Assembly (NCBI GenBank): GCA_018396615.1
Contig: JAGTQT010000006.1
Location: 1 to 51,794, forward strand
Length of the DNA stretch: 51,794 bases
Direction: 5' to 3'
Source: Candidatus Bathyarchaeota archaeon
GTDB taxonomy: Archaea > Thermoproteota > Bathyarchaeia > Bathyarchaeales > Bathycorpusculaceae
Position 1 is the first letter of the stretch; each line of letters starts with the position of its first letter. Of this stretch, positions 17,557-33,867 are shown piece after piece. The notes below the pieces were generated by a model that was given only the letters and a program-made list of their open reading frames with translations, made no database searches and was not told the origin of the DNA. Position numbers and translations under genes: made by a program.

Positions 17557-20500
17557 CTAGGCAAAATCAGTTAAGCAGATCTGTCTAGGTTTATTGCCAT
17601 CAAAAAGCGTGTTGATTTCCTCTTTCAGTAGCTTAATTCTCTGCGCATAGTAGGATGGAAGACCATATTTCTCAACCAAGTGCTGTGCGGCTTCAATGTA
17701 TTTTTCGATGCCGCCACGGTACACAGTTAAAGACAGTTGCCCCCCACAGATGGAGCATTTACCTCGAAGAGGCACACGTCTAAAGTGCTTGTTGCAAGAC
17801 TTACATCGGAAGCCTTGAGTTGAAAACGCACGCAGATTGCCAGCGATGTCGCGCATAAAATGTGTCGTTAAAACCTTCAATGCCACGGTTCTAGCATCCA
17901 CCGCATCGATTTTTTCAGCAAGCTCAAGCTGGCTATTCAGCTTCTCAATCATTGCTTTAAATTTCTTGTAAGAGCTTTCGGCGTTACCAACGTTCACATT
18001 TGACACAGGAATCGTGAAGTTGAAGCCTTCGAACTGTGCCTCGGTGCCAAGTCGGTAGCCAACAAGGTCGATAAGCCTGTTCACTTGTCTCGCGTCTGTC
18101 TGCTCCCATGTTTTTTCATAAAACTCAATTGGGTAAGTAGAGGAAACGTCAAAATCATGCGCTTGTCTCTGCACCTCTTTAGGATTAACCGTGGGAATTA
18201 GTAATAGCGGTGCATCCATGATCCCTCCAATCTGCGCAGGCAGATACTCTTTGGAGAAGTTGAGCAAGACATCCAGTGCAAGCATGACTGTATCCTCGTC
18301 TCCATCGCAGTCCCTTCGCTTTGCGGAGTGCCACATGGGGTGCGCATAGCAAACATTCAGGTTCGTGAAGCCTATAATGCGTCCCAAGATCCCTGCACAT
18401 GTATGAGGAGCTAAGCCTATTATCAAATGCCCAAGCGTTTCTTTTGCACTGCTAACTTTGAAGTAAGGCGGAAGACCATAAACCTTAACGAGGCATTCAT
18501 CAACAAAACAGGCTACGCGCATCAAATAGTCTGCACATTTAAAGGGCACTATTACATCTTGAAGCTTCAGTTCACACATCTGGTTCGCGTCTTCTAAAGG
18601 AGCCCCAAAGCAGTCGTGAGTGTAACCAAGTTCGTGGAGCTTCTCAACAGGGATACCAATTTCGAACGGCTTAAAATGAGTCAAAGGAGCATTTGTAACA
18701 TCAAAGCGAATTGTCCCATCCTTATACACTGACAGATCATGCCGTGCACGCAAGAGACCTTTTTCAATGGTTTCAGGTGTTCGCGTCTTGTTCGTCAGAG
18801 CTTTGACGCCTTTGAGGATTTTGGGTAGAGAAACGCCTAAAGCAGTGCACGCTGGCTCAAGATACTCTCTGATGTTTATGGATCGCTTTTGATAGTTGCA
18901 CGCGGGCGTTTTGCAAACTGGGCACTCATCTCCTTTCAAAACTTTGCCGCACCGCGGGCATGTCTTTTCGGCAATTGTCTCTGCGCCGCATGAGCCACAT
19001 TTAATTCTGGTAGTCAAAATATTGCAGACTGGGCATCTTCTTTTAACAAGATCCACGAAGATTGCGCCTTTCCTTGCGGCTTCGGCAAGATCCCTTTGTG
19101 ATCCGCCAGCTAGACCAACAGGGAAAAGGACATGAACAAGCGGTTTCATTTCACGTCTTTTGGCCTTCTCAGGCCTGCCCATCCGCGCACCAACAAGGGT
19201 CGGCGCCTTATCCCTAATCGTAACACCAGAAAGCATGCTAACAGCAGACAGCACGGATTCGGGAAAGGAGACATCACAAGGATTTGACACGCCAATACCT
19301 AGAGAAAACGCAAAGGCCGCTGCATCTTCTCCTTCAACAACAATTTTGTCCTCTATTATTTTGTGAGGCAGGCAAATCGCGTCTAAAGAAGCCTTAATAT
19401 CCGGAGCGAAGACTCCACTAATTTTAGTAACAAAGCCACCTTCACGCACAGTCTCTGCGCCAAGAAGCCATTTTCTCAGCTTTACAAGATCGTTAACTGA
19501 GGAAAGATTCGCCCAAAAATACAAGAAGCGGGGATGCAAGGGCAAATGTAGAGCAGAAGACAAGGAAACAGCTTCTTGGATCGTAGGCTTATTTGCAAAA
19601 GGATTGGCTAAAAGCTCTTCCAACCGCTTCAAAGGAACCTTTGCAGCATCAGCAGCCTTAGCAGCGTCTCCGCCAAAACTCCGTGCAATAACAACACGCA
19701 GATCTTCAGTCCACCATTCCTCAACATAACCAGAGGCCACAAGGCGCTTACTATTGTACAAAAAATCTCCAAAACTGACCAACATGTCGCCTAAAAACAG
19801 TATCTTTTTAATCTTTTCATGAATCTGTGCAAAGCTTCCAGCCTCCACGCGAACAACCGAACCGTCTTCAAGGCGAACCACAGGAGACTCAAGAGCATCC
19901 ACAGGCGCCACTATACCGCCTTTTCCAGGAAGCTCTAGACGCAGCTGTGTTCCGGCTGCAAGAAAACCTTGCAGAACAAGCATTGTTGCTGGGTGAAGAC
20001 CCACGGCTGACAGCCCCGTGTTACGCGCTCTACCATAGCGCAAACGGAAGCCGCCACGCCTTGAAGGAAAGGAGAAAATCGGCCGCCCCGCGATTACGTC
20101 GTCCATGAATCCGGCTGACTTCTTTTCTGACTTTTTGCTGAAGTCTTTAAGCCAATCCCACCCTTTTATTCGAAGCTTCTCGATAACGGCTAAAACCTTG
20201 GATGCTCTTCCCACTACACCGTCGTTGACGACTCTGAGGGCTCCGCCTCTTACCCTGTTAGTTTCTATGCGTGGCAGATTGCGGAAGGAAGACACCTCAT
20301 AAGGATCCGACTCCGTGCCCGTTACCTCAACTGGGAGCCAACTAAGCGCCTTCCTTAACTCGTCATCAGTGACATGATACTGAAACCGCCCAACAGCACG
20401 CTCATACAGCCTGATTTCTTCAATAAAACGCGAAATCTCATCTTCAGTGGGCTTATACCGATCGAGTCCCAGAAGCCGCCTAACAAAGTCTCCAACAACA

Positions 20501-20961
20501 AGTGTCAACGCTTGGTCGGTGCCACCTGCGGCGCGCATAGGCCCAGCAAAGTACACGGCAAGATACCGTGTCCGATCATTGTTTGCCTTAATCTTAACTT
20601 GTGCCACTCCCTGTAGAGGTGCAGCCGTTAAGCCTTCGGTAAGAATCGCAAGCGCGGTTCGGATAGCTTGGTCTGCCGCTTTCTCAGGTTCCATATGGCC
20701 AAACTTGCCATACACGATCTCTTCAGCAACCTTAAACGCCAGCTCTTCCCTAGAGATTCTTGTGCTTAGCTCTCTAATGCTTGCAGCAACTCCCGGAGGG
20801 CCAACAAGCCCTTCAACAAGATCTGCCAAGTCTTTTGCAAGCTTGCATTCGGTCGCAAGCGAGGGATCCAGCCCTTTAGTTCGAGCGTGCATGCTTATTT
20901 CGTACAGCTGGTTTAGACTGCGCTCGAGGCTTTCCAAGTATTGTCTGTACTTTTCACTCAT
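17557..20961 (-). CDS. polC: DNA polymerase D large subunit (DP2)
   Basis: AGPMRAAGGTDQAL, zinc ribbons CPVCNILTTRIKCGSCGAE and CPRCGKVLKGDECPVC, RDCDGDEDTVMLALD, C-terminal CKSCNKHFRRVPLRGKCSICGG. Open frame extends to 21033; MSEKYRQYLESLERSL at 20961 is the likely start. Confidence 0.96.
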   Translation of the reverse strand: MSEKYRQYLESLERSLNQLYEISMHARTKGLDPSLATECKLAKDLADLVEGLVGPPGVAASIRELSTRISREELAFKVAEEIVYGKFGHMEPEKAADQAIRTALAILTEGLTAAPLQGVAQVKIKANNDRTRYLAVYFAGPMRAAGGTDQALTLVVGDFVRRLLGLDRYKPTEDEISRFIEEIRLYERAVGRFQYHVTDDELRKALSWLPVEVTGTESDPYEVSSFRNLPRIETNRVRGGALRVVNDGVVGRASKVLAVIEKLRIKGWDWLKDFSKKSEKKSAGFMDDVIAGRPIFSFPSRRGGFRLRYGRARNTGLSAVGLHPATMLVLQGFLAAGTQLRLELPGKGGIVAPVDALESPVVRLEDGSVVRVEAGSFAQIHEKIKKILFLGDMLVSFGDFLYNSKRLVASGYVEEWWTEDLRVVIARSFGGDAAKAADAAKVPLKRLEELLANPFANKPTIQEAVSLSSALHLPLHPRFLYFWANLSSVNDLVKLRKWLLGAETVREGGFVTKISGVFAPDIKASLDAICLPHKIIEDKIVVEGEDAAAFAFSLGIGVSNPCDVSFPESVLSAVSMLSGVTIRDKAPTLVGARMGRPEKAKRREMKPLVHVLFPVGLAGGSQRDLAEAARKGAIFVDLVKRRCPVCNILTTRIKCGSCGAETIAEKTCPRCGKVLKGDECPVCKTPACNYQKRSINIREYLEPACTALGVSLPKILKGVKALTNKTRTPETIEKGLLRARHDLSVYKDGTIRFDVTNAPLTHFKPFEIGIPVEKLHELGYTHDCFGAPLEDANQMCELKLQDVIVPFKCADYLMRVACFVDECLVKVYGLPPYFKVSSAKETLGHLIIGLAPHTCAGILGRIIGFTNLNVCYAHPMWHSAKRRDCDGDEDTVMLALDVLLNFSKEYLPAQIGGIMDAPLLLIPTVNPKEVQRQAHDFDVSSTYPIEFYEKTWEQTDARQVNRLIDLVGYRLGTEAQFEGFNFTIPVSNVNVGNAESSYKKFKAMIEKLNSQLELAEKIDAVDARTVALKVLTTHFMRDIAGNLRAFSTQGFRCKSCNKHFRRVPLRGKCSICGGQLSLTVYRGGIEKYIEAAQHLVEKYGLPSYYAQRIKLLKEEINTLFDGNKPRQICLTDFA

Positions 20962-21143
20962 GGGACCGTTCAAGCAGAGCCTTTCCTTCGTCTTTTTGTG
21001 CACGAGAGTGCTTATTTCTGTTCTTTGAAACAAAAAAATAAAAGTTGATTCGGCAACAAAAAATGTTCCATACAGATTTCACATAGAAAAGGATACACAT
21101 TTCTACGTAGAAACGCAAAAGGAAAATTGTGCAGAGCCGCTTA

Positions 21144-21908
21144 CTAGCTTCTGAAACGTCGAATTCCCTGAATTATTTCAGAAACCTTCTGCCTAACGCC
21201 GGAGCTCTCAACAAGGTTGCCTGTAACAATTATGTCTGCTCCCGCAGAAGCCGCAGCCAGCGCTTGCTCTCTGGTTTTTATGCCGCCTCCAACAATAAGC
21301 GGAACATCAATATAATGTTTGACTGCCTGAATCATCTCGGGAGAGACAGGTTTCCTAGCGCCAGACCCTGCTTCAAGATATATAAAGCGCATCCCCAAAT
21401 ACTGCCCCGCCAAAGCATGTGCAGCCGCCAATTCAGGTTTGTCATGAGGTATGGGCACAGCTTTGCCAATAACTCCGACAGTTCCTCCTTCGCCAACAAT
21501 TACATATCCCAGCGGAAGCGGTTCTAGCCGGCATTTTTTGACAAGAGGAGCCCCTAACACCTGCGCGCCCATCAAGAAGTAGGGGTCAGCGGAATTCAGA
21601 AGAGACATAAACCATATCGCGTCAGCGTATCGGCTTATTCCAGTAACGTTGTTCGGAAACAGTATTACTGGGATCTTGACTGTGTGTTTAACCGCCTTTA
21701 TGACGCTGTCTAGGTGTTTCGGCGAGACAAATGTTGATCCACCAATCATTATGGCTGATGTCTCGCTACTCTTTGCTTTGCTGGCAATTCTGGAAGCTTG
21801 CGGTGGTGTCACCTCCTCAGGATCTATGAGTGTCATATGGATAGTCTTCTCAGCCGCAATCTTCTCAAGCAGATACTTCTCCACGCGTCCCATCACGACG
21901 TCTCTCAT
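21144..21908 (-). CDS. Geranylgeranylglyceryl phosphate synthase
   Basis: HMTLIDPEEVTPPQASRIA, MIGGSTFVSPKHLD, ILFPNNVTGISRYADAIWFMSLLNSADPYFLMGAQ, YLEAGSGARKPVSPEMI, PLIVGGGIKTREQA. Confidence 0.95.
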   Translation of the reverse strand: MRDVVMGRVEKYLLEKIAAEKTIHMTLIDPEEVTPPQASRIASKAKSSETSAIMIGGSTFVSPKHLDSVIKAVKHTVKIPVILFPNNVTGISRYADAIWFMSLLNSADPYFLMGAQVLGAPLVKKCRLEPLPLGYVIVGEGGTVGVIGKAVPIPHDKPELAAAHALAGQYLGMRFIYLEAGSGARKPVSPEMIQAVKHYIDVPLIVGGGIKTREQALAAASAGADIIVTGNLVESSGVRQKVSEIIQGIRRFRS

Positions 21909-24036: not shown

Positions 24037-25209
24037 CTACCTCAACTTTGTGACCGCCCCTTCGATGCGATCTAAAGCGTCTACAAGTTGCTCGTACGCT
24101 GCTGCATAAGAGATTCGAATATATCCCTCCCCGCGACTGCCAAATGCAGATCCTGGAACGGTGGCAACGTCGGCTTCTTTCATGAGAAACTCTGCAAAGG
24201 CCTCTGATGTTTTGCCTAATGCCCTTATGTTTGGGAAAGCATAGAACGCGCCTTTCGGAATCCCGCATTCGATCCCCTTAATCTCATTGAGCCTTTTGCA
24301 AACCAGTCGGCGTCTCCTATCAAATTCCCGAACCATCTGGCTAACCGATTCCTGTGGTCCCCGCAACGCAGCCAATGCAGCGTACTGTGCCACAGTATCA
24401 ACACAAGCGGTAACATACTGGTGCACAAGCCAAAGTGCAGCAATAAGCTCCTTGGGGCCATACACGTAGCCCAGCCGCATACCCGTCATTGCATAGGTTT
24501 TCGAAAAAGAATTAACAACTAAAGTGCGCTCACGCATGCCGGGGAAGGCAGCAAGGCAATAGTGCTTCGCGCCATCGTAAATAATCTTCTCATACACTTC
24601 ATCAGAGATCACAATCAGGTCATGCTCAACAGCAACCTTGGCTAATGCTGCAATCTCATCATACGAGAGAACCGCGCCTGTAGGGTTGTTAGGAAAGTTC
24701 AGAATTATCACACGTGATCTTTTTGTGATAAGTGATGTCACATCATCAATTGAAGGCTTGAAATCATTTTTTTCCAGTAAAGGAATGGACACAGGCACGC
24801 CGCCGACAAGGCGAATGCCTGGTGCATATAAAAAAAACCCTGGATCAGTGGTGATTACTTCGTCGCCAGGATTTACAAGACTCATAAGGGCTAGAAAGAT
24901 TGCTTCTGTTGCTCCAATGGTCACAAGTATCTCTGAGGCAGGATCATAGGTCAAGCCATAGTCTGAGGCTGCTTTTTTTGTGAGTTCTTCTCGAAGTTCA
25001 GCAATTCCGTTCGTGGGGGCGTAGTGTGTTTTGCCTTCCAATGCTGCTTTAGTGCAAGCGTCTAAAATATGGCGGGGTGGAGTAAAATCGGGCTCTCCAA
25101 CGCTTAAATAGATTGTTTGGCTTTTTTTGTCTGTCAAAGCGAAAAATCGGCGAATTCCTGACGGTTTAATGCCTTTTAGGCGCTCAGCAGGCTTTAAATT
25201 TGAAACCAA
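24037..25209 (-). CDS. Class I/II PLP aminotransferase (aspartate aminotransferase-like)
   Basis: IYLSVGEPDFTPP, LNFPNNPTGAVLS, VISDEVYEKIIYDG, NSFSKTYAMTGMRLGY. Confidence 0.94.
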   Translation of the reverse strand: MVSNLKPAERLKGIKPSGIRRFFALTDKKSQTIYLSVGEPDFTPPRHILDACTKAALEGKTHYAPTNGIAELREELTKKAASDYGLTYDPASEILVTIGATEAIFLALMSLVNPGDEVITTDPGFFLYAPGIRLVGGVPVSIPLLEKNDFKPSIDDVTSLITKRSRVIILNFPNNPTGAVLSYDEIAALAKVAVEHDLIVISDEVYEKIIYDGAKHYCLAAFPGMRERTLVVNSFSKTYAMTGMRLGYVYGPKELIAALWLVHQYVTACVDTVAQYAALAALRGPQESVSQMVREFDRRRRLVCKRLNEIKGIECGIPKGAFYAFPNIRALGKTSEAFAEFLMKEADVATVPGSAFGSRGEGYIRISYAAAYEQLVDALDRIEGAVTKLR

Positions 25210-25338: not shown

Positions 25339-25818
25339 ATGGAGGCAAATGTTTTGAAGCTTAAAGACAACGTCCAAGTGTGGTTGACAAGCTCGTTAAA
25401 CGACCCTGTTTCAAAAATACTTGCAAAAAATAGTCATTTAACGACAACACAGCTAGAAACTTTCCTAATTGACATTTTATCAGATAGTTTATCAGGCAAA
25501 TCACTCACATACGATGAAAAAGCCAGTTTACGACTGATTAAGGCAAAAATAAGCCGAGGCGCCTTTAATAGGACATTAAAACAAGCAAAAGACAATGTCA
25601 TCAAGTCAATCTACACAGTGCTTCTCTTAGGGTATCTGGGAGTGTTTGAAAGCATAGCACTCGATCCCTATCTCGAAATAGCAAACAAATTGCAGGATTA
25701 CGTTGCCGCACACAAAAACCTCTCACACAACGACGGCAACATAGAAGACCATAAAAAACTCATAGAAATGATCCGAGAAGAGCTCGAAACAGGCCTAAAA
25801 AACCTCTCAAGTCCATGA
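25339..25818 (+). CDS. Hypothetical helical protein, origin-proximal
   Basis: Clean ORF MEANVLKLKDNVQVWLTSSLNDPVSKILAKNSHLTTTQLETFLIDILSD...; ATG at 25339 preferred over 25318. Confidence 0.7.
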   Translation: MEANVLKLKDNVQVWLTSSLNDPVSKILAKNSHLTTTQLETFLIDILSDSLSGKSLTYDEKASLRLIKAKISRGAFNRTLKQAKDNVIKSIYTVLLLGYLGVFESIALDPYLEIANKLQDYVAAHKNLSHNDGNIEDHKKLIEMIREELETGLKNLSSP

Positions 25819-25827
25819 ACGGCGCTA

Positions 25828-25853
25828 GTGTGACGTCACAAATCACAAAAAAC
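25828..25853 (+). repeat. 26-bp direct repeat copy 1: GTGTGACGTCACAAATCACAAAAAAC (contains palindrome GTGACGTCAC)
   Basis: Read directly; 23/26 identity to copy at 25994-26019. Confidence 0.85.
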
Positions 25854-25872
25854 AAAGGGTGGCACGGAACAG

Positions 25873-25911
25873 TTTTAGCTTTATTGAGATGGCTCTAAAA
25901 TAAAGCTAAAA
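25873..25911. repeat. Perfect 13-bp inverted repeat TTTTAGCTTTATT-(13 nt)-AATAAAGCTAAAA
   Basis: Arms 25873-25885 and 25899-25911, read directly. Confidence 0.9.
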
Positions 25912-25993
25912 AAAGAAAAGAAAGGCAAATTCTCGAGATTTCCAGCGATCATAAAAACGGTCTGAAAGAATTAAGCTGATATTTGGTTGTGAT

Positions 25994-26019
25994 GTGTGAC
26001 GTCATAAAGCACTAAAAAC
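25994..26019 (+). repeat. 26-bp direct repeat copy 2: GTGTGACGTCATAAAGCACTAAAAAC
   Basis: Read directly; 166 bp downstream of copy 1. Confidence 0.85.
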
Positions 26020-26125
26020 ATGCAATAACCATAAAATTTAAATGTTGTACGCCATGACTGTGATGTGTGATGCAACATGGTGCGCCACATATTATCACAG
26101 CGGTATCACGGGAGAGAGGTTTTTG

Positions 26126-26860
26126 ATGATTGACTTCGTGTTGATTGTCAGTGGAGTTTTACTTGGAATGACTATCACCATCACGGTGGGGATTTTGAGG
26201 AAGCTCAAGCGAGCTGGAGAGGAATATCAGAAGGCAAAGGACGCTTTCAGTGATATCATTCTAAGTTTTGACAAGCAGCTTGAACGTGAATCCAAGCGAC
26301 TGGAACTTGTTGCATATAAGCTGGAGGCTTCATCTTCGAGGAACGGTATGGTTTCTACAAAGGTTTCGCAAATTGAAAAAGATCTTGTGAGTCTCAAATC
26401 CAAAATTGATGATGCCCTTGTCTATAAAGAGCAAGCTGTGACATCACTAAGCGATCTCGACAAGAAATTGCGTGATATCGTTGCATCACAAGAGTCTGTT
26501 AGCGCGAAGGTTGCTGAAATCGAGTCGAAGATCTCAAAGCCTATGCACGTTCCAGAGCCCAAAATTGACGCTGTAATACCCATAAGGCGTGATAGAGCAT
26601 TATCGCCTTTAACTGAGACGGAGCTTGCTGCGTTAGAATATCTTGCTTCTGAAGGCCCGAAAACGGCGCCGGAAATCAGATGGAAGATCAGGCTTAGCAG
26701 AGAGCACACGGCGAGACTTATGAAGAAACTTTACGAAGCAGGCTATTTGGAAAGGGACCAGAGCAAGATTCCCTTTAAGTACAGCGCTAAAAAGGAGTTA
26801 GAAAAGGTGTTAAAGAAAACTAGCGATAACACAGCTGTTACCTCAAAGGACAATGCTTGA
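26126..26860 (+). CDS. Predicted membrane-anchored coiled-coil protein with C-terminal winged-helix DNA-binding domain
   Basis: N-terminal TM (MIDFVLIVSGVLLGMTITITVGILRKLK), long heptad-like region, then LTETELAALEYLASEGPKTAPEIRWKIRLSREHTARLMKKLYEAGYLERD (MarR-like wHTH). ATG at 26126 follows GGGAGAGAGG; the 26042 start is upstream extension. Confidence 0.75.
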   Translation: MIDFVLIVSGVLLGMTITITVGILRKLKRAGEEYQKAKDAFSDIILSFDKQLERESKRLELVAYKLEASSSRNGMVSTKVSQIEKDLVSLKSKIDDALVYKEQAVTSLSDLDKKLRDIVASQESVSAKVAEIESKISKPMHVPEPKIDAVIPIRRDRALSPLTETELAALEYLASEGPKTAPEIRWKIRLSREHTARLMKKLYEAGYLERDQSKIPFKYSAKKELEKVLKKTSDNTAVTSKDNA

Positions 26861-26918
26861 AAAGCCCCTCTTTACAAAGAATCCTTGCAATTGCAATGCA
26901 GTATGATATCAAAAAAGG

Positions 26919-27353
26919 TTACGGTGTCTGTCGTTTTGAGCTAATCTGCGGGATACTAGATACAAGTTTGTATCTCAGGTTGTTTCCTGCGCCGTTTTTT
27001 AGCAACATACCTTGGGCAGTCATTCGTGAAAGGTAGGTGGAAACCGTGCTAAGAGAGATAGGTTCCTTAAACCCCTGCTCATAAAGGCTCTGCACTTCAT
27101 GCGAAGAGAACCAGACTAGCGGAAAATTTTTCTTCAGTAGGAGTTTCATTTTCTCGTATTTACTCTGAAGTCCTTCAATCAAATTTCGGCTTGATTCGAA
27201 GTGCTCATCCGGAGCCTCTGAAATTCCTCCTAGTAGCTCAACCATGTCTAGAAGTCTCTGTGCCTTTTCGCGGTTTATTCTTCCTTCGAGGGCTATAGAA
27301 TATTTGTTACCCTCATCGTCTGATACCTCGACGCGTATCCTTCTTGCAGGCAT
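26919..27353 (-). CDS. Hypothetical protein with C-terminal HTH-like region, divergent from the origin region
   Basis: 144 aa: MPARRIRVEVSDDEGNKYSIALEGRINREKAQRLLDMVELL...ISLSTVSTYLSRMTAQGMLLKNGAGNNLRYKLVS. Confidence 0.7.
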   Translation of the reverse strand: MPARRIRVEVSDDEGNKYSIALEGRINREKAQRLLDMVELLGGISEAPDEHFESSRNLIEGLQSKYEKMKLLLKKNFPLVWFSSHEVQSLYEQGFKEPISLSTVSTYLSRMTAQGMLLKNGAGNNLRYKLVSSIPQISSKRQTP

Positions 27354-27555
27354 AGATATTTTTTCACTCCGTCCTAGGAGGTGTTCACAACTCTGTGTGT
27401 GTAGGTTATAGGTGTTATGGTGAAAGGGTAAAGAGTAAAATAGGCTAAATAAAGGCTAAAAGGAAAAAAGAAAAAGAAATTGCACTTTTGTGGCGGTAAC
27501 AATCTTCACATAAGCCACTTTTTCTGTTTTGCGGATAAGAACGTTCTTAAGCGGT

Positions 27556-27580
27556 TTTTCCAGTGGAAAGCAAGGGGTGG
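27556..27580 (+). promoter_or_regulatory. ORB-like origin recognition box 1: TTTTCCAGTGGAAAGCAAGGGGTGG
   Basis: Match to archaeal ORB pattern (TTCCA.TGGAAA....GGGGT). Confidence 0.85.
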
Positions 27581-27806
27581 TAGTTTCACAAGAAAAAAGT
27601 CAAAAATATGGCAAAAAAACCTTAAGGGGAAAGAAACACAGACATCTTTAAGTGTATTTCACATGGGTTTCACATTTTGTGAAGAAAAACTTTGTTTCCT
27701 TCAAAAGAGGTGAGACTATTTACAAAGAACACATGTATAGTAGCAGCATTATGTGTAACATTTTTGCGAAAGGAAACGTTGCAATCTGCAATTTTGTTGT
27801 TTCCTT

Positions 27807-27830
27807 ACGCCCCCCAATTTCTAGTGGAGT
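27807..27830 (-). promoter_or_regulatory. ORB-like box 2, inverted: reverse complement ACTCCACTAGAAATTGGGGGGCGT
   Basis: Reverse strand matches TCCACTAGAAA-N4-GGGG. Confidence 0.75.
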
Positions 27831-27980
27831 TGCCAATTTTTTGGTAGTGCGTACGATTGTGGTTATTCATGAGTTAATTTATTTTTTTGTGGTTGTTAGC
27901 TTATATTTAGTTTTGCTGTCTTACCGTCTGGAGTATATTTCTTTTCAAAAAGAAAACTAAAAGTTCTAAAGAACTTAAGG

Positions 27981-28006
27981 ATTTCCAGTGGAAAACATGG
28001 GGTGCG
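27981..28006 (+). promoter_or_regulatory. ORB-like box 3: ATTTCCAGTGGAAAACATGGGGTGCG
   Basis: Near-identical to box 1. Confidence 0.85.
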
Positions 28007-28081
28007 TAGGCTACACGAGAAAAGTAGCTGCGAACAACTTTTGTTTTTTCTTCTTTATTTTTCTATACTAGAGAGCTTATC

Positions 28082-28101
28082 TTTCCACTAGAAATAGTGG
28101 A
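28082..28101 (+). promoter_or_regulatory. Mini-ORB-like element TTTCCACTAGAAATAGTGGA (hairpin TCCACTA-GAAA-TAGTGGA)
   Basis: Shares TCCACTAGAAA with box 2, lacks the G-run; lies 30 nt upstream of the orc1 start. Confidence 0.55.
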
Positions 28102-28131
28102 TCAGCCTTTGAAAGTGGAGAGTGCAAAAAA

Positions 28132-29385
28132 GTGAGCGGAAATGATGTACTTGATGAGGTATTTGACCATTTTACGGGGCAGGCTATAGTCTTTAGAGAT
28201 AGAGAAGTTTTGAGGCATGACTATGTGCCGGGACGGCTGCCTCACCGCGAGGAGCAGATACAACGACTTGGAGAAACGGTAGCGCCTATATTGCGAGGTG
28301 AGCGGTGTTCGAATATATTTATTTATGGGAAGACTGGTACCGGTAAGACTGCGGTTACGAGGCATGTGCTTTCTCGGCTTGAAGTGAAGGCTAAGGAGCT
28401 TAACGCGCCGATTAGGCTTTGTTATGTGAACTGCCGTATGGTGGTTTCTGAGTATCGGGTGCTGGCAACGATGTGCCAAAGTGTAGGGTTGTCTGTTCCT
28501 TTTACTGGCTTGTCAGCCGGAGAGGTTTTTGACCGCTTTCGCGCGGAACTTGATACATCAAAAGTAGTTTTTGTTGTTGTTTTAGATGAAACGGATGCAT
28601 TAATCAAAGCTCGCGGGGATAATTTGCTTTATGAGTTAACGCGAGTAAATGAGACAATGAACAGAAGTAAAGTGACTGTGATTGGAATCTCTAATGATCT
28701 GAGGTTGAAAGAGTTTCTTGATCCCCGCGTTCTTAGCTCACTTAGTGAGGAGGAGATGGTTTTTAGACCTTACAACGCAGATGAGCTGAAGAATATTTTA
28801 CTTGAGCGGGCGCGTCTTTCTTTTAATGAGAACGTGCTATCTGATGCGGCTCTTAGCTTATGTGCTGCTTTGGCTGCTGCGGAGCATGGTGATGCCAGAC
28901 GTGCTTTGGATTTGCTGCGTGTTGCTGGCGAGGTTGCTGAGCGAAGAGGCGCCTGTACAGTAACCGAAGAACATGTGCGGGAAGCGGAAAAGCATATTGA
29001 GCATAATCGTGTTGTTGAGGCTTTGCGTAATCTTACGCTTCATTCAAAGCTTGTAACTCTTAGTGTTTATCACTTAAACGGGAAGGCTCCACAGGGAGCT
29101 ATAACAGGGGAAATATACGAGGTCTACAACGAGCTGAGCGGGGAACTAGGCGTTACTCCTTTGACACAGAGGCGCTTGGGTATGCTTGTTAATGAACTTG
29201 ACGCTATGGGTATTTTGAACGCCAAGGTTGTAAGCATGGGACGTTATGGACGAACAAAGAAGATTCGCTTAGAAGTTGCCCGTACCCAAATACGCGACGT
29301 TTTCTCAGATGATAGCCGCCTAGGGCTCCTTGTTGATTACGCGCCTAAATGCTTGTCCAAGCAAACACGAGAAACCAATGCATAA
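28132..29385 (+). CDS. cdc6: Orc1/Cdc6 replication initiator
   Basis: FIYGKTGTGKTAVTRHVL (Walker A), VVFVVVLDETDAL (Walker B), VIGISNDLRLKEFLDPRVLSSL (sensor 1), GDARRALDLLRVAGE (sensor 2), C-terminal winged helix. GTG start. Confidence 0.96.
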   Translation: MSGNDVLDEVFDHFTGQAIVFRDREVLRHDYVPGRLPHREEQIQRLGETVAPILRGERCSNIFIYGKTGTGKTAVTRHVLSRLEVKAKELNAPIRLCYVNCRMVVSEYRVLATMCQSVGLSVPFTGLSAGEVFDRFRAELDTSKVVFVVVLDETDALIKARGDNLLYELTRVNETMNRSKVTVIGISNDLRLKEFLDPRVLSSLSEEEMVFRPYNADELKNILLERARLSFNENVLSDAALSLCAALAAAEHGDARRALDLLRVAGEVAERRGACTVTEEHVREAEKHIEHNRVVEALRNLTLHSKLVTLSVYHLNGKAPQGAITGEIYEVYNELSGELGVTPLTQRRLGMLVNELDAMGILNAKVVSMGRYGRTKKIRLEVARTQIRDVFSDDSRLGLLVDYAPKCLSKQTRETNA

Positions 29386-29399
29386 ACACTTGCGCACTT

Positions 29400-30977
29400 T
29401 TAGCTGAATGCTAGATGCATGGGTTCCAGCGTTTGCAAATTGACAATAGGAACCTTGTTAGGGGTTGGCATAAACCCATTGCGCTTCATGTAACTAGTTT
29501 GCTCCTGCCAGCAGCCGGAATTTACAATCAAGACTCCGCGGTACATTCCATGCTCGAGTGAATGTATATGCCCGCCATGAAAGATGTCGGGCACGCGCTC
29601 TATAACTAGAAAGTCACTTGTCTCAGGGGACAGTGGCGTTTTTCCTCCGTATATTGGCGCAAGATGGCGGCTTTGGAGCAGTAAGCGCATCGCTTTTTCT
29701 GGATTGTTGTGAGACATGCCGGGAACGGCGGAAATAACGTCGTCCAAGCTTCTTCCGTGGAACATAAGCACCTCTACACCATGGATGCTAAGGTAGCATG
29801 GGCTTCCAAGCGAGCGCACGTTTCGGGTTTCTTGTAAGGTTTCCAGAAACTCGTTTGCTATAGCTGGCTGTGGCAGTGCTCTTCTCGGAGAATCATGATT
29901 GCCTGGGATAATAATCACTTCTATGTAGTCTGGGATCTGTTCTATGTATTTTGCTGCTAGCCGGTATTGTTTGTAGAGGTCTCTGACCACGAGTTCTTTT
30001 ACTTGGTTCGGGTAGACTCCCACGCCATCAACGATGTCGCCTGCGATTAGAACGTATTTTACGTGGCTGGCGATTTCACGCCAGTTTTCATTGCCGTATT
30101 TGCCGTTAAGCCAGAGGAGAAATCTGCTAAGTGCTTCTTTCTGGAATTTTGTGCTGCCAACATGTAAGTCTGACGTTAGTACGGCGTATACCGGCTCGTC
30201 TGCCTTGTGTGGCTGCTTTTGTGCGATGTCTGGAAGGATGATGTCCTCTGCGATTAAGAGAGAGCCTCTTGTTTTTGTGACGCTTACGCAGATAACTTGA
30301 TCAAGAAGTAAGGCGCGGGCTTTCTTTTTGACTTCTTCTGATGTGCTTTGGGGGATTAAAACGGTGACACTCGCACTTTGGTCTTCGAGAGTTATTATTG
30401 TACGTTGCTGTGACTCGCGTTTTTCCGTGATCATTCCAATTATTTTTGACCTTGTGCCAGAAGACGCTTTAATTGCGTCTATTATTGACGCTGCACCTTT
30501 TACGTCTATCCTTTGTCTAAGAAGTTTTTCGAGACGCCTGAATCTGTCCCTAAAATATTCTACATAATCTTCAACGGCGCCATCTGAGCCAAGCTTGCTA
30601 CACGGGTCATCTATGATCTTTGTCTCCGCAGCCACTTCCTTTGCGTAGGGGCGATAAGTGCTTTTGCTTTCTGTTAATTGAGACTCTGCAAATACAGTGG
30701 TCTCTTGCAAGGGAGGTGGACTTATTTCTTTGGATAACGCGGGTTCTTTTAGTAAGTCTACCAGTAGCTCTTTACAGATGAAGAATGGTTTTTTTTCAAG
30801 ACTGTTGAGGGCTGCTAGTGCCTTGTTTATCGTTTCTGTTGGGTCTTCTGTGGAGGCTAGCTCGCTTAGAAACTCGAATGCTTCTCGATCAAGTTGATAG
30901 CCTGCCGCAATAGCTTGCGCCACGGCATGTTGAAGCTTTTCCGCCTTGTTTACAGTTGAAGTTTTCTCCAGTTGCAT
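29400..30977 (-). CDS. polB: DNA polymerase D small subunit (DP1)
   Basis: OB-fold region then LTSDLHVGSTKFQ, VLIAGDIVDGVGVYPNQ, VIIIPGNHDSPRRALPQPAI, VLMFHGRSLDDVISAVPGMSHNNP, FHGGHIHSLEHGMYRGVLIVNSGCWQEQT. Confidence 0.96.
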   Translation of the reverse strand: MQLEKTSTVNKAEKLQHAVAQAIAAGYQLDREAFEFLSELASTEDPTETINKALAALNSLEKKPFFICKELLVDLLKEPALSKEISPPPLQETTVFAESQLTESKSTYRPYAKEVAAETKIIDDPCSKLGSDGAVEDYVEYFRDRFRRLEKLLRQRIDVKGAASIIDAIKASSGTRSKIIGMITEKRESQQRTIITLEDQSASVTVLIPQSTSEEVKKKARALLLDQVICVSVTKTRGSLLIAEDIILPDIAQKQPHKADEPVYAVLTSDLHVGSTKFQKEALSRFLLWLNGKYGNENWREIASHVKYVLIAGDIVDGVGVYPNQVKELVVRDLYKQYRLAAKYIEQIPDYIEVIIIPGNHDSPRRALPQPAIANEFLETLQETRNVRSLGSPCYLSIHGVEVLMFHGRSLDDVISAVPGMSHNNPEKAMRLLLQSRHLAPIYGGKTPLSPETSDFLVIERVPDIFHGGHIHSLEHGMYRGVLIVNSGCWQEQTSYMKRNGFMPTPNKVPIVNLQTLEPMHLAFS

Positions 30978-32625: not shown

Positions 32626-33867
32626 TTAGAGAGGAAGGGTGTTTACTTTTTGCGGCTGTTTTGCGAAGGTTACTTGGCTGCTTGCTCGTAGCTCATTAAC
32701 GTACAGTGTTTCGCCTTCTACTCTACAGTCGGCTTCCACAGTTATCTCTTCGCCATAAACGTTTCTTGCATGAACACCGTTTCGCAGTAGAATTCTTTTA
32801 CCATATACGTCCTCTACATGTGCATCTTTACCGATGATGATTTCGTCTGCCCGTAGTGTTCCTTTTGCTTCGCCTCTTTTGCCTATTTCAATGAACCGTG
32901 CCGTGGCACCCTCGTCAGTAGCAATAAGTCCGCCTACTTCTATGTGGTTTTGCGTTTGCACTTTCTTTGAGTGGAGTGTTCCTCCGACTTCGATGTTTTC
33001 AGCTTCTATTTCACCTGAAACTTCTATTTTTCCTCCGACTTCTAGATCTCCAGAAAGCTTTAAGGCGCCATACACACTGACTTTTCCTCCGACCTCAAGT
33101 TCTTCGCCGGCTGCTGATCCCGAAATGTCTATTTTTCCTCCTACGTCGATTTCTCTGAATTCAAGGTCTCCTTGAACTTTCAGTATGCCTCCTACCTCTA
33201 TTCTTTCTCCTTTGCTTTTGCCGGCTAGGCTAACTGTGCCTCCCACCTCTATATCCTCAAATTCCAGAGGCGCGTTTGACTCAAAACATCCTCCAACGTC
33301 GATCTCGCGGATTTTGCCTCCTCCTACGCGGGCTGTTCCTCCCACTGATAGCGAGTCAAGCTGGACAAGTGCTTCTGCTTCGAGGCTTCCGCCGACGTCT
33401 ACATCTTCCGCATTTATTTCACCTTTAGCTCTGAAACTTCCGCCGACGTCTATGGCTTCAGCTTTTATGTTACCGTCAACTCTGAGGCTTCCGCCTACAT
33501 CTATGTTCGCTGCTTCCAGTTTTCCATGGACAACTAGTGCTTCATCGACTTCCGCGCTTGCCGCAGAAACATTTCCGTCGACTTCTAGATAGCCATCGCT
33601 GATTTCGATATTGTTTTTAACCTCCAATTTACCGTGGATTTTTATGTTGCCTTCTGCCTCAAAACCTGTTGCGGAAAGGTTGCACTCAAAGGTATTGTTG
33701 CCTTCGCAGTAAACAGTTCCAGAAACCCTAACAGATGGGGGGGAGCCCTCGCCTTTTAGGGTCGCGTGTCTGCTTACTACAAGGTCTCCTTCAACGGAAT
33801 TTAAGGTTACGGTTGCTCCTTTTGGGATAGCTGTTTCATTGACCATTTTCAAACCTCCATTTAACAT
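32626..33867 (-). CDS. Bactofilin/polymer-forming-like repetitive beta-helix protein
   Basis: About a dozen tandem ~17-aa repeats ending [DE]VGG (e.g. SFRAKGEINAEDVDVGG, CFESNAPLEFEDIEVGG, KIEVSGEIEAENIEVGG). Confidence 0.8.
   Translation of the reverse strand: MLNGGLKMVNETAIPKGATVTLNSVEGDLVVSRHATLKGEGSPPSVRVSGTVYCEGNNTFECNLSATGFEAEGNIKIHGKLEVKNNIEISDGYLEVDGNVSAASAEVDEALVVHGKLEAANIDVGGSLRVDGNIKAEAIDVGGSFRAKGEINAEDVDVGGSLEAEALVQLDSLSVGGTARVGGGKIREIDVGGCFESNAPLEFEDIEVGGTVSLAGKSKGERIEVGGILKVQGDLEFREIDVGGKIDISGSAAGEELEVGGKVSVYGALKLSGDLEVGGKIEVSGEIEAENIEVGGTLHSKKVQTQNHIEVGGLIATDEGATARFIEIGKRGEAKGTLRADEIIIGKDAHVEDVYGKRILLRNGVHARNVYGEEITVEADCRVEGETLYVNELRASSQVTFAKQPQKVNTLPL

Follow-up and report, generated by a model that had tools for sequence, protein, structure and literature searches.

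RocS of Streptococcus pneumoniae combines a winged-helix (wHTH) domain, a coiled coil and a membrane-binding helix and was proposed to act as a motor-independent DNA–membrane tether (PMC11500499). Its DNA-binding domain, which is of the MerR type, is N-terminal and its amphipathic helix is C-terminal. RacA of Bacillus subtilis, also a wHTH protein with a coiled coil, binds centromere-like repeats (ram sites) and anchors the chromosome (PMC11500499); it acts in sporulation, with DivIVA as the polar anchor. In the SegB/SegA system of Sulfolobales, the archaeal DNA-binding protein SegB has palindromic sites upstream of its own genes, and its sites are enriched near an origin (PMC12284271). SegB has a ribbon-helix-helix fold, a ParA-like partner and many chromosomal sites. 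WhiP, a winged-helix protein, is encoded beside oriC3 of Sulfolobus (PMC4010727). E. coli CRP reads TGTGA via R180-E181-xxx-R185 (PMC11253593). Outside Sulfolobales, chromosome positioning and segregation are an open question in archaea.

We analysed a stretch of 51,794 nucleotides from Candidatus Bathyarchaeota archaeon, further referred to as the window. The first-pass annotation had reported three uncharacterised genes beside a candidate origin, here named A, B and C, and a check of the ORF list confirmed their coordinates and strands. The genes of the locus and its conserved neighbours are as follows.

17557..21033, minus strand: large subunit DP2 of PolD, a conserved neighbour
21144..21908, minus strand: GGGP synthase, a conserved neighbour
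25339..25818, plus strand: gene A, 159 aa, all-helical, family unassigned (from the ORF list)
26126..26860, plus strand: gene B, N-terminal transmembrane (TM) helix, coiled coil and C-terminal wHTH domain with the recognition helix LSREHTARLMKKLYEAGYLER
26919..27353, minus strand: gene C, beta-beta-alpha N-terminal part and wHTH domain, divergent from Orc1 across the origin
27354..28131, no strand: oriC, the C–Orc1 intergenic region, with ORB elements; the GC-skew minimum of relative G132 is at the same locus
28132..29385, plus strand: Orc1/Cdc6 initiator gene (NF001625, 501.9 bits, cut-off 501)
29400..30977, minus strand: small subunit DP1 of PolD, a conserved neighbour

The reading frame of A is open already from 25318, and that of B is also open from an upstream ATG at 26042. 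The start of B at 26126 is favoured by the TATA-like TTTAAAT at 26037–26043 and by a GAGAGG motif before 26126. In a sister species (Candidatus Bathyarchaeota, contig JARYLR010000001.1) B is 81% identical. A is all-helical in the predicted structure (mean pLDDT 86), with no match beyond chance in Pfam, NCBIfam, PDB profile or fold searches and nothing similar to its fold in PDB at any useful score; it stays, as first described, a helical protein without a family. A likeness to HTH_10, noticed by eye, was borne out by just 2 of 50 members, and we make no claim of it. None of the described families covers the A/B/C module, and no description of it was found in the open papers searched. A bactofilin-domain protein (PF04519, 54.6 bits) is encoded near the origin, ~2 kb past DP1 (window positions 32626–33867, minus strand).

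The divergent interval between C and Orc1 is AT-rich, has a length of 778 bp and contains the following elements.

27557..27580, plus strand: ORB element 1 with G-string, conserved in the sister species
27982..28005, plus strand: ORB element 2 with G-string, conserved in the sister species
28083..28094, plus strand: degenerate ORB-like element TTCCACTAGAAA

The two ORB elements with G-strings compare with 0.02 expected by chance. Of 30 relatives, 25 carry such elements in the region upstream of Orc1 (0 of 200 shuffles). The cumulative GC skew of relative G132, computed over 1.2 Mb, has its minimum at 1.08 Mb, that is, at the Orc1/C locus. Together with the adjacent Orc1 gene, these data identify the C–Orc1 interval as the origin; hence the candidate origin of the first-pass annotation is real.

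The C-terminus of C, earlier called HTH-like, is a wHTH domain in the AlphaFold2 model (pLDDT >90 over the domain), and a flexible linker joins it to the N-terminal beta-beta-alpha part. Against Penicillinase_R the window protein scores 18.0 bits at a cut-off of 22.6, and 35 of 42 orthologues match this profile (best E 4.4e-8), in agreement with the model. The domain is generic, and in some orthologues it is MCM_C/Cdc6_C-like. C on the minus strand does face away from Orc1 on the plus strand across the ORB-bearing interval, so its orientation is divergent at the origin as had been reported. C is similar to WhiP as a winged-helix protein encoded beside an archaeal origin. Compared by description, WhiP is Cdt1-related and the initiator of its own origin, whereas C lies beside an Orc1-type origin and, unlike WhiP, co-occurs with Orc1 and does not replace it. 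C is a winged-helix protein distinct from B and linked to Orc1/oriC. We tentatively predict that it is an Orc1-linked origin regulator, which would probably affect initiation or Orc1 expression. Distant homologues of C were observed in loci L219 and L220 (family f48, PolD-lacking) with no Orc1 close by; these may be a paralogous wHTH family.

In the class (201 genomes), the counts are 170 for A, 154 for B, 142 for C and 154 for the locus-type Orc1, nearly always as a single copy; among 250 genomes of the phylum the numbers are 123, 129 and 156 for A, B and C, respectively. Gaps in MAGs give false absences in these counts. The order A+ B+ C− [oriC] Orc1+ is conserved in Bathyarchaeia and ammonia-oxidising Nitrososphaeria, marine ones included, often within the DP2-GGGPS-...-DP1 replication cluster. 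In ammonia oxidisers, A+ B+ C− Orc1+ recurs with DP2-GGGPS before it and DP1 after it (gene maps were made for phylum loci L187, L189, L193 and L202). In family f29, 17 genomes were tested, and each carries A, B and C side by side with Orc1 adjoining C; in five of them C and Orc1 are neighbours across the end of a single-contig genome. AmoA was confirmed in seven genomes of families f29, f58 and f61. In the Nitrosocaldus genome paper, the origin was placed by analogy with N. maritimus (PMC4010727). The co-occurrence with the origin in gene neighbourhoods is strong and extends far beyond Bathyarchaeia.

A and B are on the same contig in 130 of 131 genomes, in all cases at most 6 kb apart and on the same strand. 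Both C and Orc1 are present in 137 genomes, C alone in 5, Orc1 alone in 12 and neither in 47 (Fisher's test, 1e-28); several of the genomes with Orc1 and without C have a contig end beside Orc1, and the two genes are jointly absent from several lineages. When C and Orc1 are on the same contig, they are at most 6 kb apart in 131 of 132 cases, and 115 of these 131 close pairs are divergent; the other 16 belong mostly to lineage f24, with Orc1 upstream of A. DP2 is present in 119 of 123 phylum genomes with A vs 31 of 127 without A (Fisher's test, 7e-36). In genome G181, assembled as one contig, C-Orc1-DP1 is located 1.03 Mb from A-B-DP2. Family f17 has kept DP2-GGGPS-NADS-A-B-DP1, with C and the locus-type Orc1 both missing, and A occurs without B in five loci (families f10, f16, f18, f22 and f23). 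These arrangements show that C is tied to Orc1/oriC, and that the partners of A are B and PolD. The treatment of A, B and C as one unit was dropped after the G181 and f17 arrangements, and the single three-gene module of the first-pass annotation is accordingly replaced by two associations, one with the origin and one with the PolD cluster.

The same counts bear on the explanation that the three genes have unrelated housekeeping functions and keep their place since the PolD–Orc1 region rarely rearranges. Metabolic genes (GGGP synthase, NAD synthase) are indeed found in this region. However, genomes tend either to retain both C and Orc1 or to lack both, the two genes move jointly in G181, and A follows PolD across the phylum; we regard such hitch-hiking as improbable.

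Several arrangements were observed besides these. The only Orc1 of family f17 (loci L123, L124, L130 and L131) is a divergent one elsewhere in the genome; the origin of this family may have moved or been replaced. In family f35 (L196, L195 and L194), B is reduced to the TM helix and the wHTH domain (~128–147 aa), and A-B are apart from Orc1 and DP2. In several relatives, a HerA-type ATPase (PF01935) and a second ORF are inserted between B and C, beside the origin (L127:7223-9809 and L140:7447-10024, both on the minus strand); the second ORF looks by eye like a NurA partner and has no Pfam hit.

Near its N-terminus B carries a single hydrophobic segment, with a Kyte-Doolittle mean of 2.36 over 19 residues; TM segments were called from hydropathy alone. 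This segment is present in 29 of 30 loci of relatives from family f1, the remaining ORF call starting late, as well as in ammonia oxidisers, and is absent in families f24, f27, f30, f32, f33, f41 and f46. Hence the TM–coiled coil–wHTH layout ascribed to B earlier holds for most lineages, by hydropathy and Pfam matches, and fails for several, where the TM helix is missing. Orientation of membrane proteins follows the positive-inside rule. Given the net positive residues after the TM segment of B and almost no extracytoplasmic part before it, the wHTH domain should be cytoplasmic.

The wHTH domain of B ends ~20 residues before the C-terminus. It exceeds the Pfam cut-offs (given in parentheses) of TrmB with 27.8 (25.6), MarR with 26.6 (24.6) and HTH_27 with 26.7 (22.2), and is closest to MecI (E=1.2e-4) and MarR (E=1.6e-3). 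B shares with the MecI/BlaI and MarR/TrmB regulators the wHTH fold and a local, putatively autoregulatory layout of sites. Unlike B, these regulators have no TM helix or long coiled coil and use a different half-site, and the C-terminal sugar-binding domain of TrmB is absent from B. The recognition helix [ST]REHT[AS]R hardly varies over the range of lineages between Bathyarchaeia and ammonia oxidisers, with R192, E193 and R197 (RExxxR) invariant in alignment A1. Both this motif (R192-E193-xxx-R197 in B) and the TGTGA half-site, predicted in the case of B, are common to B and CRP/FNR, but B has no cyclic-nucleotide domain (no match to a cNMP-binding domain in Pfam and NCBIfam), and its predicted half-sites are 2 bp apart, not 6. 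The search of A, B and C against the same two databases yielded no match to the ParB CTPase fold and no RHH match.

The array of TGTGA/TCACA half-sites in cis around A and B is new to this analysis. In the window it is arranged as follows.

24724..24743, minus strand: array site "distal", ATGTGACATCACTTATCACA, within the coding sequence for the aminotransferase adjoining A
25828..25847, plus strand: array site "far", GTGTGACGTCACAAATCACA, just past the A stop codon
25988..26007, minus strand: array site "near", TGTGATGTGTGACGTCATAA on the plus strand, upstream of the B TATA-like box
26037..26043, plus strand: TATA-like box TTTAAAT of B, a putative promoter element
26059..26078, minus strand: weaker array site, TGTGATGTGTGATGCAACAT on the plus strand, at the predicted B transcription start
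26095..26110, plus strand: leader half-sites TCACAgcggtaTCACG

In the A–B interval, a TGTGAYRTCACA-type palindrome occurs twice in inverted orientation (at 25828 and 25994) as a 27-nt repeat, and each copy carries one extra half-site. Palindrome copies are present in this interval in all 30 f1 relatives examined. The matrix for the array was trained on sites from the f1 A–B intervals, and thus their presence in f1 follows from the training itself; independent evidence comes solely from the distal site, from the other families and from G132 sequence beyond this locus. Up to four sites per locus were found with this matrix, at about −1402, −298, −138 and −67 from the B start. All 30 f1 relatives have at least two sites and 26 have the distal one, with the spacing kept. 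The distal site is intergenic in L126 and L141 and is present also where the aminotransferase gene is absent. The sites bracket the TATA-like box of B, in which TTAAA is nearly invariant in 23 relatives. The scan of G132, covering 1.2 of 1.456 Mb of the main contig (82%; about three quarters of the genome), yielded four strong matches (scores 19.5, 31.1, 33.0 and 27.6), all at A–B (1085.9–1087.3 kb) within 1.35 kb; the next-best match scores 10.9.

In Bathyarchaeal families outside f1, a site was found at 13 of the 15 loci where A is accompanied by B vs 0 of 5 where B is absent (Fisher's test, p=0.0014), and L124, one of the two negatives with A and B, shows TGTGATATCACAataaaTCACA at the same place. 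The matrix had no match in 30 Orc1/origin loci, and in G181 the sites are located with A–B, away from C-oriC-Orc1. For ammonia oxidisers the matrix is too strict and the density of half-sites was used instead: at four A–B junctions, 5 TGTGA/TCACA were observed vs 0.24–0.29 expected, a density ~20-fold the local mean. The presence of the array tracks B and not the origin.

The A–B intergenic region might instead be a structured RNA (a leader or a small RNA), with the half-sites serving as helix strands. Its fold z-score of −3.4 and the inverted "far" and "near" copies are consistent with this, but the RNAalifold covariation term is only −0.51, most paired columns are invariant, the variable central column includes A.C mismatches, the Rfam search returned no match, and the half-sites recur in differing arrangements and within coding sequence. 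Variation among the array sites is concentrated at the central YR step, and covariation is low, which fits protein-bound DNA over RNA. A structured RNA is therefore disfavoured as highly improbable.

Judging by sequence, the array is likely to be bound by B, which would read the TGTGA half-sites via its CRP-like recognition helix (R-E-x-x-x-R); C, A or another regulator could also be the reader. Bound around its own promoter, B would repress or balance its own expression and probably that of A, and such autoregulation is fairly probable. The binding would probably be cooperative, via the coiled coil, and B possibly loops to the distal site, 1.1 kb from the others. In most lineages B is predicted to sit in the membrane, and its only strong sites are apparently at this locus; hence bound B would hold a segment 2–3 kb from oriC, beside the PolD genes, at the membrane. 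A physiological tether of this kind is hypothetical and rather unlikely. Taken as a whole, our best explanation is that B is usually membrane-anchored, binds the array, autoregulates A–B and places origin-proximal DNA at the membrane; we consider it about evenly poised.

The cis-sites associated with B flank the putative promoter of this gene, and autoregulation is thus better supported than anchoring. One alternative is that B is an ordinary MarR/BlaI-type repressor of A–B with an incidental or sensory membrane helix and no part in tethering or segregation. It agrees with the position of the array around the TATA-like box and predicted start of B, with the similarity of the wHTH domain to MecI and MarR, and with the persistence of the array in TM-less lineages and, along with A–B, away from the origin. 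On the other hand, a conserved site 1.1 kb upstream, coding in some genomes and intergenic in others, would be an unusual operator, and no sensor domain accompanies the TM helix on the outer side of the membrane, which leaves location as the only evident role of the helix. We hold this alternative to be possible, if somewhat doubtful.

The opposite alternative is a dedicated tether or partition system, in which B and a centromere-like array position the oriC/PolD region in a RocS-, RacA- or Noc-like manner and autoregulation is secondary, as in plasmid par operons. Pointing to it are the combination of a membrane helix with a coiled coil and a wHTH domain in B, the confinement of the sites to one locus beside oriC in the G132 scan, and the oriC linkage conserved across Bathyarchaeia and ammonia oxidisers. 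The three-part layout is shared with RocS, itself a proposed DNA–membrane tether (PMC11500499), and both proteins unite a wHTH domain, a coiled coil and membrane attachment in one chain, with the helix lost in some B lineages. However, the order of the parts in RocS is reversed relative to B, the B profile matches TrmB/MarR/MecI and not the MerR type, and B differs from RocS by its TM helix and the predicted local cognate array. RacA differs by its DivIVA anchor and its role in sporulation, and no homology between it and B was detected. B resembles SegB in the predicted sites upstream of its own genes and in the proximity of the array to an origin, but B is a wHTH protein whose predicted sites are at one locus. 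No ParA-like gene (segA-type) was found among the identified neighbours of the module, which argues against a dedicated tether, as do TM-less B orthologues and the separation of A–B from oriC in G181 and f17. A dedicated tether is thus unlikely in our estimate.

The array, with B as its predicted reader, is near oriC in most genomes, G181 and f17 being the exceptions, and its position away from Orc1/oriC in these two argues against a universal origin-anchoring role. TM-less orthologues, with f24 keeping the sites, indicate that the core function does not require attachment to the membrane. For the same reason, and since A–B are off the origin in some genomes, the tether was graded lower. In its broadest form, B, the array, A and C would be an ancient membrane tether/partition system of PolD-bearing Thermoproteota: membrane-anchored B would grip the TGTGA array as a centromere-like element next to oriC and PolD, A would be its partner and C a regulator on the origin side, and initiation would be linked to positioning without a ParA-type motor. 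We consider this an unlikely, speculative extension.

The locus thus provides a widely conserved origin-linked candidate module in Bathyarchaeia and cultivated ammonia oxidisers, for which the proteins are named and both a half-site and a recognition code are predicted. Should B be no more than an autoregulator, three widely conserved origin-linked protein families would still gain a context, and even then C would be a candidate regulator of initiation beside Orc1.
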